From positions 1 to 36,744 of the forward strand of contig JACPGD010000167.1 of the NCBI GenBank assembly GCA_016182645.1: 36,744 nt of DNA, written 5' to 3'. The position numbers and the translations under genes are program-made. The notes beneath the pieces were generated by a model. The model did no database searches. It worked only from the letters and a program-made list of their open reading frames with translations, and was not told the DNA's origin. Positions within the stretch are counted from its first letter, which is position 1. Each line of letters starts with the position of its first letter. The stretch is from Candidatus Hydrogenedentota bacterium (GTDB lineage Bacteria > Hydrogenedentota > Hydrogenedentia > Hydrogenedentales > JACPGD01). Below are positions 10,364 to 18,292 of this stretch, piece after piece.

Positions 10364-10598
10364 CCTAAATCCGGTAGTTAAACAAACTGGGAGCACGTGG
10401 GTGACAGCTTTAGGCGCGGCGGCGATTGCTGGGTTTATGCTGTCGGATCGTCACTACCGCGCTTAAGGCTGCTCTCTCCAGGTGGGTGAGTGGGCAGCCT
10501 CAAGCGCGAAGAAGAAGCTGGACTGATAAGCTCAAGCCGGTGTCGCGCTTGAAGCTGCCACCCCCGAGTTTGAGTAGTCTCCAACTGCCGGATTTAGG
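10364..10598. mobile_element. MITE-like nested palindromic element A with 16-bp terminal inverted repeats and two internal hairpins
   Basis: CCTAAATCCGGTAGTT (10364-10379) vs AACTGCCGGATTTAGG (10583-10598), 15/16 match when reverse-complemented. Hairpin arms 10403-10419/10457-10474 and 10492-10509/10543-10563. Confidence 0.82.
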
Positions 10599-12544: not shown

Positions 12545-13227
12545 TCCGGCGCAACTTCCTTGTGGTGGTGCATCAACCACAAGTTGCGCGCGTACACCGG
12601 CAGGTTTGCAAGCAAGCCGAAGGCAAACACCCATTCCTGCCGGTAGAGAAACGGCACGAGTTGCAACAGCGAGGCGGCGATGCTCAGGTACCAGAATGCC
12701 AGCGGCACGACGGACTTCTTGCTGGCCTCCGACACCAGCCACTGCAGCAAGAAACGGCAGGCAAACAGGGCGCTGCCCAGGCCGCCCAATCCGATCAGGG
12801 TCCAGTTGAGCCATAGGACGCTGCTGGGCGCCGCCTTTGTCACATGGATCTCTTTGCCCCAAGTATATACCAGCAAGGTGACCGCCAGCAGCACCACCGC
12901 AACAATCACGGCGTGCGTTACATAATAGCGTGCCCGCGACAGGGCCCCCTTCTCGCCCCAACCGAGCACCAGGTTGCGTGCATACACAACGATATTAAAT
13001 GCGTGGTTGAGCGCGCCGTTGGGCGATTGAGACACGGCGGCAAACAGCAGCAGCACGAACGAGCCCACGGCGCTCATGTACCAGAAGAGCATGGGGAATA
13101 CACTGCGCTTTTGCAGTTCCGATACTATCCACTGCACATAAAAGCGGCCATAAAAGGCCACGCCGCCGATCACGCCAATAACCTGCCAGTAGAGCGGCAA
13201 GTCGCTAAAACCCGATCCACCAATCAA
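12541..13227 (-). CDS. Membrane protein with two tandem lipid-A-biosynthesis N-terminal (LAB_N-like) domains
   Basis: FYGRFYVQWIVSELQKRSVFPMLFWYMSAVGSFVLL...VYARNL and LFACRFLLQWLVSEASKKSVVPLAFWYLSIAASLLQL...VYARNLWL. TTG start overlapping the GT2 stop (TTGA). Confidence 0.85.
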   Translation of the reverse strand: MIGGSGFSDLPLYWQVIGVIGGVAFYGRFYVQWIVSELQKRSVFPMLFWYMSAVGSFVLLLFAAVSQSPNGALNHAFNIVVYARNLVLGWGEKGALSRARYYVTHAVIVAVVLLAVTLLVYTWGKEIHVTKAAPSSVLWLNWTLIGLGGLGSALFACRFLLQWLVSEASKKSVVPLAFWYLSIAASLLQLVPFLYRQEWVFAFGLLANLPVYARNLWLMHHHKEVAPE

Positions 13228-13943
13228 TCTTCTTCCCCCTCGACCCGAATGACGACGTAGCGTCGCGTGAGCCAGCCGACCCCTAGTAAATCATAAATCC
13301 CGCGCCAGAGCCTATTGCCAATACCATATTTTGAAATTCCGTGCTGCCGGGCATGATGGCGCACGGGCGATTCGACAATGCTGAAACCGGCGGAACGCAG
13401 GAGGGCGCCCAGGAACCGGTGGGCGCCATTAAATGGAACAATATGCTCGATGCATACTTTCCGGAAGCCTTTTGCGCCGCAGCCGGCATCACGGATGCCG
13501 TCGTTCAGCAAGGCGTTGCGAACGGCGTTGGCCACGCGGCTCGAGACCTTGCGCACCAGCGTGTCGTGGCGTTCGGCCCGATAGCCGCAGACCACGTCGT
13601 GCACCTGCAACAACTCGAGGAAGCGCGGGAAATCGGCCGGATCATTCTGCAAGTCGCCGTCGAGCGTCAGGATGTAGGCGCCCTGGGCGCGGCGCATGCC
13701 CGCCACAACGGCCGCGGACTGGCCGCTGTTGCGCACCAGGTGGATTGGCCGCACCTGCGGCTGGTGCGCGCGCAGCATATCGAGGGCTTCGCGGGTGCCG
13801 TCGGTGCTGCCGTCGTTCACAAACACGCACTCGTATTCGTACTCCGGCAAGTCTGCAAAAACGGCGGCGATCCGCGCGAAGAGCAGCGGCACATTCTCGA
13901 CCTCGTTGTAAAACGGTACAACGACCGATACCAGTGGTTTCAT
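13224..13943 (-). CDS. Family 2 glycosyltransferase (polyprenol-phosphate sugar transferase-like)
   Basis: MKPLVSVVVPFYNEVENVPLLFARI, VFVNDGSTDGTREALD, LDGDLQNDPADFPRFL, C-terminal YGIGNRLWRGIYDLL. Confidence 0.92.
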   Translation of the reverse strand: MKPLVSVVVPFYNEVENVPLLFARIAAVFADLPEYEYECVFVNDGSTDGTREALDMLRAHQPQVRPIHLVRNSGQSAAVVAGMRRAQGAYILTLDGDLQNDPADFPRFLELLQVHDVVCGYRAERHDTLVRKVSSRVANAVRNALLNDGIRDAGCGAKGFRKVCIEHIVPFNGAHRFLGALLRSAGFSIVESPVRHHARQHGISKYGIGNRLWRGIYDLLGVGWLTRRYVVIRVEGEED

Positions 13944-14117
13944 CACCTGACCGACGACCCTCAACGTGAATTGGTTGTGCTCCGGCAGCAGCGTGCCGCG
14001 GAAAAGAAGACGGGCGGGATAATGCGCAAATTATACACGGACGACGCCTGCCGTTCCTCTCTCGGGGACCTGCCCACTCCCCGGGGACCACGGCCAGCAG
14101 CCCGTTGCAAAAATCCT

Positions 14118-14144
14118 GTAGCGCCCGTGCCTCCGTGCTGGGCG
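14118..14144 (+). repeat. GTAG-hairpin REP-like element B, diverged copy B4
   Basis: GTAG-CGCCC-GTGCCTCCGTGCT-GGGCG; compensatory stem change relative to CGTCC/GGACG in other copies. Confidence 0.65.
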
Positions 14145-14176
14145 TCACTTGACCTTGCGGATTTGCCCCCAATTCA

Positions 14177-14202
14177 CGTCCGGCACAGAGACCGGACGCT
14201 AC
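14177..14202 (-). repeat. GTAG-hairpin REP-like element B, copy B1
   Basis: Minus strand reads GTAG-CGTCCGG-TCTCTGTG-CCGGACG, perfect 7-bp stem. Confidence 0.85.
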
Positions 14203-14283
14203 CTTCATGTCTTCTCCGCGCGCCGTCCACTTTGTCGGCCCCGGAAACTGGTGTACAATGATGCTGTCGATTCGGGGGAACAA

Positions 14284-14316: not shown

Positions 14317-15864
14317 ATGTGCTGTCACTGCAATCGCCGCGAATTCCTGGGCATCAGCACGGCCGCGTTGGCCAGCGCCACGTTTGCGCTGAATGCGGCG
14401 GCCATCGAGCCGGTCACGGGGGGATGGAACCCGGAACAGCCGCTGGTCCGGTTGGGCAAACCACTGCGCGTCCAGCCGATTCTCATGTACCGCGTGGCGG
14501 AACGCAAGCCCCAGACGAGTTGGAAGTCCTGGGGCGGCGTGCAGGACGAGGCCTCCGCGCAGGAAGAATCGGGACGCATTGCACAGGAACTGGAGGCGCT
14601 GCGCGGGCGGGCCGATTTCGAGGTCGAGTTTCTGGCGCCGCGTCTGGTGCGCAGTGAGGAAGAAGCGGTCCAGGCGAGCGCGGGTGACTTCCACGCGACG
14701 CTGATCTATCCCGCGTCCGGCGGCGGCAAGACATTGAACGCGTGTGCCCCGGATGGTAAGGACGCGCTGATCTTTGTGCGGCACCGCAGCGGGCCCATGT
14801 ACTACTTCTACGAATCGCTGAGCACGGAGTACCTGCGGCAGAACGATCGCGAAGCGCCCGCGGGCGACCCACGCCGTTTTTCCGTGGATGATGTCGTCGT
14901 GGATGAAACGGACGAACTGCTCTGGCGCCTGCGCGCGCTGTATGCGGTGCGGAACCTGCGCGGTACGCGCGTCTTCACGCTGGGCGGAAGTTGGGGCAAA
15001 TACGCGCCGGACGCGCCGCGAATTGCCCAGGAGAAGTTTGGCCTGGAGATTGTCGAATTCGGCTACGAGCAATTTGAACCGCGCCTGCAAGCGGCGTTGC
15101 AGGACAGTGCCGTCATGACGCGCGCCGCCCAGGCGGCCGAGCGTTACCTGAAGCTGCCGGGCACATCGCTGGAGACGGAGAAGCCGTTCGTGGTCAATGC
15201 CTTCGTTCTGCACGAACTGTTCAAGCAGTTGATGGCGGAGCACGACTGCGGGGCCTTCACGATCAAGTCGTGCATGGGCACGATCATGCCGATGGCGGCG
15301 ACGACCGCCTGTTTGACGCTGGAGACGATGAACGATGAAGGGCAAATCGCCCTGTGCGAATCGGATTATGTCGTCGTGCCAGCGGGCATTCTCCTGCGGC
15401 ACCTCGCGCAGCGTCCGGTGTTCATGCACAACTCGACCTTCCCGCACGGCGGCTTGGTCACGTGCGCCCACTGCACCTCGCCGCGGCGGATGGACGGCCA
15501 GCGCTACGAGCCCGCACGGATTGTCACGCACTACGAGTCTGAATACGGCGCTGCACCCAAGGTCGAGTTTCCGATCGGTCAACCCCTTACTTTCATCGAC
15601 CCTGAATACACGACGGGGCGGTGGGTCGGCTTCCGCGGCAAGGTCCAGGCGAACCCGTTCTACGACATCTGCCGCTCGCAACAGGAAGTGACCATCGAAG
15701 GGGATTGGCGGCGGCTTATCAACGAAGTGCGCGACAGCCACTGGATGATGGTCTACGGCGATTTCCTGAAGGAAGCGGGCTTCGCCGCCCGGCGCCTCGG
15801 GCTGAAGTGGGACAACATCACGGACGGGAGCCTTGACGGTCCCCACAAGGATGTTATAACATAA
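14317..15864 (+). CDS. Twin-arginine signal-bearing protein with L-fucose/L-arabinose isomerase-like C-terminal fold
   Basis: N-terminal NRREFLGISTAALASATFALNAAA; C-terminal GAFTIKSCMGTIMPMAATTACLTLETMNDEGQIALCESDYVVVPAG, HNSTFPHGGLVTCAHCTSPRRMDG, WRRLINEVRDSHWMMVYGD. Confidence 0.78.
   Translation: MCCHCNRREFLGISTAALASATFALNAAAIEPVTGGWNPEQPLVRLGKPLRVQPILMYRVAERKPQTSWKSWGGVQDEASAQEESGRIAQELEALRGRADFEVEFLAPRLVRSEEEAVQASAGDFHATLIYPASGGGKTLNACAPDGKDALIFVRHRSGPMYYFYESLSTEYLRQNDREAPAGDPRRFSVDDVVVDETDELLWRLRALYAVRNLRGTRVFTLGGSWGKYAPDAPRIAQEKFGLEIVEFGYEQFEPRLQAALQDSAVMTRAAQAAERYLKLPGTSLETEKPFVVNAFVLHELFKQLMAEHDCGAFTIKSCMGTIMPMAATTACLTLETMNDEGQIALCESDYVVVPAGILLRHLAQRPVFMHNSTFPHGGLVTCAHCTSPRRMDGQRYEPARIVTHYESEYGAAPKVEFPIGQPLTFIDPEYTTGRWVGFRGKVQANPFYDICRSQQEVTIEGDWRRLINEVRDSHWMMVYGDFLKEAGFAARRLGLKWDNITDGSLDGPHKDVIT
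15853..15860. promoter_or_regulatory. Possible TA promoter/operator palindrome
   Basis: Perfect palindrome GTTATAAC in a short AT-rich patch overlapping the isomerase 3' end, 30 bp before the antitoxin ATG. Confidence 0.35.
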
Positions 15865-18164: not shown

Positions 18165-18190
18165 GTAGCGTTCGGTCTCCGTGCCGGACG
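18165..18190 (+). repeat. GTAG-hairpin REP-like element B, copy B2
   Basis: GTAG-CGTTCGG-TCTCCGTG-CCGGACG. Confidence 0.8.
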
Positions 18191-18266
18191 GGAACACGCA
18201 GCACAGACCGGAAAGCAACGCAAACCGGGGAATTTGTTGTAGCTGCATGCTGGTATTGCAAAGTCG

Positions 18267-18292
18267 CGTCCGGCACAGTGACCGGACGCTAC
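18267..18292 (-). repeat. GTAG-hairpin REP-like element B, copy B3
   Basis: Minus strand GTAG-CGTCCGG-TCACTGTG-CCGGACG; inverted partner of B2. Confidence 0.85.

Follow-up and report, generated by a model that had tools for sequence, protein, structure and literature searches.

Two hairpin doublets and their surroundings

The window analysed here is a 36,744-nt stretch of DNA (positions 1 to 36,744 of contig JACPGD010000167.1) from the assembly GCA_016182645.1 of a Candidatus Hydrogenedentota bacterium, and it carries two inverted doublets of short hairpins tagged with GTAG. On ORF and Pfam evidence at these two loci both doublets are intergenic. Doublet 1 is situated between divergent genes, namely a glycosyltransferase (13224-13964, minus strand) and an ORF at 14317-15864 (plus strand), and doublet 2 (18165-18292) between the convergent genes for an FGGY kinase and an S-adenosylhomocysteinase. 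Their parts, named by the two layouts (types A and B) described below, are as follows:

14098-14116, plus strand: left terminal inverted repeat of the type B shell, CAGCCCGTTGCAAAAATCC, with 1 mismatch to the consensus CAGCCCGTTGCAAAAGTCC
14118-14144, plus strand: left GTAG hairpin of doublet 1, GTAGCGCCCGTGCCTCCGTGCTGGGCG, 27 nt with a 5-6 bp stem; a homologous left arm is present in other type B copies
14145-14176, plus strand: type B spacer, 32 nt, conserved in the alignment of type B copies
14177-14202, minus strand: right GTAG hairpin of doublet 1, GTAGCGTCCGGTCTCTGTGCCGGACG, with a 7-bp stem
14203-14217, plus strand: type B right linker, CTTCATGTCTTCTCC, placed by alignment with other type B copies and by the window layout
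18165-18190, plus strand: left arm of type A doublet 2
18191-18266, plus strand: spacer of type A doublet 2, constrained in length and diverged in sequence in the alignment of 28 type A units
18267-18292, minus strand: right arm of type A doublet 2

The sequence, coordinates and 32-nt separation of the two hairpins of doublet 1 agree with those given in an earlier note on this DNA, and the GTAG ends lie on the outside of the pair. The two arms differ in quality as hairpins: as single-stranded DNA the right arm folds well (-8.1 kcal/mol, z -4.1), and the left, which is 27 rather than 26 nt long, is in the window copy a weak fold (-5.8 kcal/mol, z -1.3). The right-hand hairpin has 3 matches in the window at up to 3 mismatches, versus 0 in 100 shuffles. 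The conserved unit is larger than doublet 1, adding the spacer (89-94% identical to its closest copies in a DNA search), the left terminal repeat at 14098-14116 and the right linker at 14203-14217; the right terminal repeat expected after this linker is not recognisable in the window copy. The earlier reading overlooked that a larger element, which has terminal inverted repeats of its own, contains doublet 1 as its core.

Copy number, unit layout and stem covariation

A genome-wide search returned 112 matches to the right-hand hairpin (≤2 mismatches) versus 0 for a reversed-pattern control. The copy set used below comprises the genome matches listed together with those of the window, 110 places in all; a small number of these, at 6-7 mismatches, are likely to be spurious. 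The GTAG tag is kept in 98 of these 110 listed copies, and 68 are exact to the consensus outside the variable positions. Genome-wide, the majority of copies stand in inverted pairs, and among the listed copies we count approximately 29 convergent pairs with a constant start-to-start offset of 99-102 bp. The GTAG-tagged REP layout in inverted pairs proposed in the earlier note is thereby borne out, with GTAG-outward pairs at high copy number in the genome.

Two doublet layouts were found in the genome. Most copies belong to type A, in which two near-identical hairpins with GTAG outward span 125-128 bp end to end. Type B is a fixed heterodimer made of a left arm GTAGCGCCCGTGCCTCYGTGCYGGGCG, the common hairpin as right arm and a conserved 32-nt spacer. 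Between type A units (n=28) identity is 91.5% and 94.8% for the arms and 50.1% for the spacer, and in the 24 units left after removal of near-duplicates the 8-nt loops of the two arms agree in 13, where 5.1 would be expected (p=1.5e-4). Given this conservation of the arms and the matching of their loops, the two arms of a type A unit move or undergo correction together, and the spacer between them drifts. By its sequence pattern type A is classed as a classic REPIN (Bertels and Rainey 2011, PMC3116915), with which it shares inverted near-invariant REPs, a less conserved spacer and the doublet as apparent unit. It differs from the published case in that no cognate RAYT was found in this genome and in that its movement as a unit is putative here. 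Type B is unlike the REPIN in its spacer, which is conserved as well.

The family also resembles the GTAG REP families of Di Nocera et al. 2013 (PMC3733652), 24 in number, in its GTAG tag, 7-bp stem, GTAG-outward (HH) inverted dimers, spacers of 20-100 bp and presence in the PVC superphylum, and differs from them in an 8-nt loop that is longer than most. GTAG REPs, outward dimers, PVC hosts, the flanking and loss of RAYTs and REP-plus-palindrome composites have all been described already (PMC3733652, PMC2817692, PMC3116915, PMC8266576). In the literature searched we found no paper on this hairpin family or on REPs in Hydrogenedentota, in agreement with the earlier impression that the family was undescribed. 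The hairpins are an apparently new family, ordinary in kind, within the known REP/REPIN class of small parasitic repeats.

Could such hairpins be functional RNA elements, such as bidirectional terminators or mRNA-end structures, that are selected in place rather than being mobile DNA? Doublet 2 is suitably placed between convergent genes, and REPs are able to act at the ends of RNAs (PMC3733652). On the other side, doublet 1 lies between divergent genes, no Rfam family matches the window at gathering scores, and the conservation of GTAG, the constant 126-bp units and the combination of near-identical arms with diverged spacers are consistent with the unit being replicated as a whole. We regard this explanation as highly improbable.

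The earlier note took the exchange of T-A for C-G in one stem of doublet 1 as a sign that the fold is under selection. Stem pair 3 is T-A in 101 of the genome's copies, T-G in 4, C-A in 4 and C-G in a single one, and it is the only pair at which a double change occurs within this genome, once. The T-A/C-G difference is a fixed one between left and right arms in nearly all type B copies; it is one old difference and not a fresh compensatory change, and is therefore weak evidence for a selected fold. Covarying stems, hardly seen among the genome's own copies, do emerge across genomes. For this, 32 distinct hairpins were picked by their 5' arm, loop and partly pairing, a choice that in part favours paired rows; 95.1% of their cells are paired versus 85.7% in shuffles. 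The covariation score is 0.231 versus 0.065 shuffled (0 of 500 shuffles reach it, and slid controls are far lower), and double-changed cells, whose count is inflated by relatedness of the sequences, number 16 versus 3.0 in shuffles and involve 3 stem pairs. Concerted correction of palindromes could be an alternative source of the double changes.

RAYT genes and related hairpins

TnpA-REP binds single-stranded REP, uses the GTAG and cleaves near CT (PMC8266576). By analogy, a RAYT (TnpA-REP) Y1 transposase would recognise the GTAG together with the folded single-strand hairpin, and the inverted doublets (REPINs) would be non-autonomous units copied in trans by it; that the enzyme would act here as published for TnpA-REP is suggested by family membership.

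The earlier note had advised looking for a Y1_Tnp (RAYT) gene flanked by the same hairpin. The genome's own assembly (586 contigs, 95% complete) yielded no RAYT whose flanks carry matching hairpins; flanking by closely similar hairpins was found in Planctomycetota. Four loci of the assembly were considered and set aside, each being without GTAGCGTCCGG flanks: L031 is IS200-like with other repeats, L032 holds only a fragment, cut off by the end of its contig, L034 has a weak Y1_Tnp match, and L033, the genome's one clear RAYT, has TTCCCAAGTACAACTTGGGAA palindromes on both sides. Around the L033 gene perfect palindromes of the GTTCCCAAGTACAACTTGGGAAC type occur at 1288, 1336 and 1972, and a variant form is found beside L127. 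At L031 (1950-2395) the IS200-like transposase gene precedes at least 5 head-to-tail units with CGACCCCTACAGGGTCG and CCCGTAGGTTTACACC hairpins, an array of a palindromic repeat type different from the GTAG hairpins.

The three Planctomycetota RAYTs L117, L133 and L140 form one clade, with L133 57% and L140 48-53% identical to L117, and all three (3/3) have inverted GTAGCG(G/T)CC hairpins on both sides, an arrangement shared with the RAYT/TnpA-REP systems (Nunvar et al. 2010, PMC2817692; PMC8266576). L117 and L133 score above the NCBIfam cut-off for REP-associated tyrosine transposase, and in L140 a frame change interrupts the gene. They come from genomes other than that of the window, their flanking stems differ from the window hairpin at some pairs, and no close homolog was found in the window's own genome. 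In Phycisphaerae, GTAGCGTCCGG hairpins pair with GTAGCGGCCGA hairpins. The same REP hairpins are borne by L083, a contig labelled Candidatus Diapherotrites archaeon, which is probably mis-binned; its sample series, ZL495, also supplied a Phycisphaerae bin in which these hairpins abound.

Closer to the window's genome, G065 of the same order contains 26 exact copies of a hairpin form with its loop shortened by one base, next to which lies a RAYT relative. The locus concerned (L174/L265) was considered as a RAYT flanked on both sides; one of its hairpins lies inside the reading frame, and the case therefore counts only as an association. At L265 this GTAGCGTCCGG hairpin within the RAYT frame is apparently a REP insertion into the gene. 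At L127 (G047) a hairpin lies 100 bp upstream of a RAYT that carries CCAAGCTCCAGCTTGG palindromes of its own, and the neighbourhood is therefore treated as chance.

The mobilising RAYT would now be either absent from the window's genome or unassembled. A related reading holds that the family is orphaned, its cognate RAYT lost and its copies fossils maintained by gene conversion only; it fits the origin that we propose below and differs on present activity. The lack of a cognate RAYT in the assembly and the description of REPtron loss elsewhere (PMC3733652) speak for it, whereas the assembly is fragmented and the 68 of 110 listed copies exact to the consensus suggest either recent activity or strong conversion. 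We consider this a serious possibility that falls somewhat short of probable.

The type B shell and its proposed movement

The type B doublet is nested in an element of 135-144 bp with 19-bp terminal inverted repeats, CAGCCCGTTGCAAAAGTCC (in degenerate form CAGCCCGT(T/G)GCAAAAGTCC), and with a linker of approximately 15 nt on one side. The terminal repeat has 29 genome matches (≤3 mismatches) versus 4 for the reversed pattern, and the window's own genome yielded 9 type B elements with both ends, 135-144 bp long. Shells with a REP core were also found in four genomes of another family of the order: G046, with a 139-bp element, and G048, G052 and G053. Two-ended copies in the latter two are 141 bp (G052) and 139 bp (G053), with degenerate arms in both. 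In G033 and G034 the shell ends enclose a different, non-REP core, and in L309 the inner doublet is inverted relative to the shell.

Half of the 4-mers flanking shells in the window's genome fit YTAR, and CTAG is common on both sides. Direct flanking pairs occur as TTAG/TTAG in this genome and ATAG/ATAG in G046; overall, flanking 4-mers match at 2.33 of 4 positions within elements versus 2.03 between elements, barely above, so that target duplication is only suggestive. CTAG-like targets fit IS5-type elements. In G039 one left shell end adjoins a DUF772/DDE_Tnp_1 gene that scores highest in NCBIfam against IS1182 and IS5, in both cases below cut-off. No right shell end was found in the G039 contig of this gene, making the DDE link that of a single left end, and the search for the shell ends in the window's own genome turned up no full-length insertion sequence that bears them.

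Because of the 19-bp terminal inverted repeats and the CTAG-like flanking 4-mers, we propose that the 135-144 bp shell would be moved by a DDE (IS5/IS1182-like) transposase, judging by its ends. These two traits and its small size are shared with the MITEs of DDE insertion sequences; it differs from them in having a REP heterodimer as its core and an autonomous partner that is here only a candidate. The shell might instead be no MITE, its outer inverted repeats being the extended end of a REPIN and the whole unit moved by the RAYT alone. A REP core does lie within every two-ended copy of the shell in the window's genome, and Pseudomonas is known to carry repeats that combine a REP with a palindrome (PMC3733652). 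The non-REP core of G033 and G034, the inverted doublet of L309 and the DDE transposase gene beside a shell end in G039 all argue against it, and we think this alternative rather unlikely.

Taking these results together, we hold it very probable that the hairpins are a GTAG REP family spread mainly as RAYT-copied REPINs, and that doublet 1 is a REP heterodimer within a putatively DDE-moved shell. Direct observation covers the number of copies, their pairing, the conservation of the arms and the nesting, as well as the RAYT clade that in other genomes goes together with near-identical hairpins. A bolder view, which we offer tentatively and consider less probable than not by some distance, is that fusion of a REP doublet with a DDE-type MITE has produced a composite movable by two unrelated transposases and persisting across families of the order, in which a single-strand Y1 enzyme would act on the GTAG hairpins and the DDE enzyme on the outer ends.

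The only unusual part of the system is the nesting of a REP doublet in a MITE-like shell. For Candidatus Hydrogenedentota and Planctomycetota, both thinly covered groups for such elements, the data add a GTAG REP/REPIN family and a flanked RAYT clade, and a REP doublet nested in a shell, seen in two or more families of the order, would let one ask how REPs spread without a RAYT of their own. Were the composite to prove true, hitchhiking on an insertion sequence would be a testable answer to the RAYT-less spread of REP doublets.

Elsewhere in the window, a repeat pair with the motif CCGCGCTTAAGGCTGC (1068-1157 and 10457-10563) lies around approximately 9.4 kb, its members matching at 91% in direct orientation over 34 nt and at 83% in inverted orientation over 36 nt.
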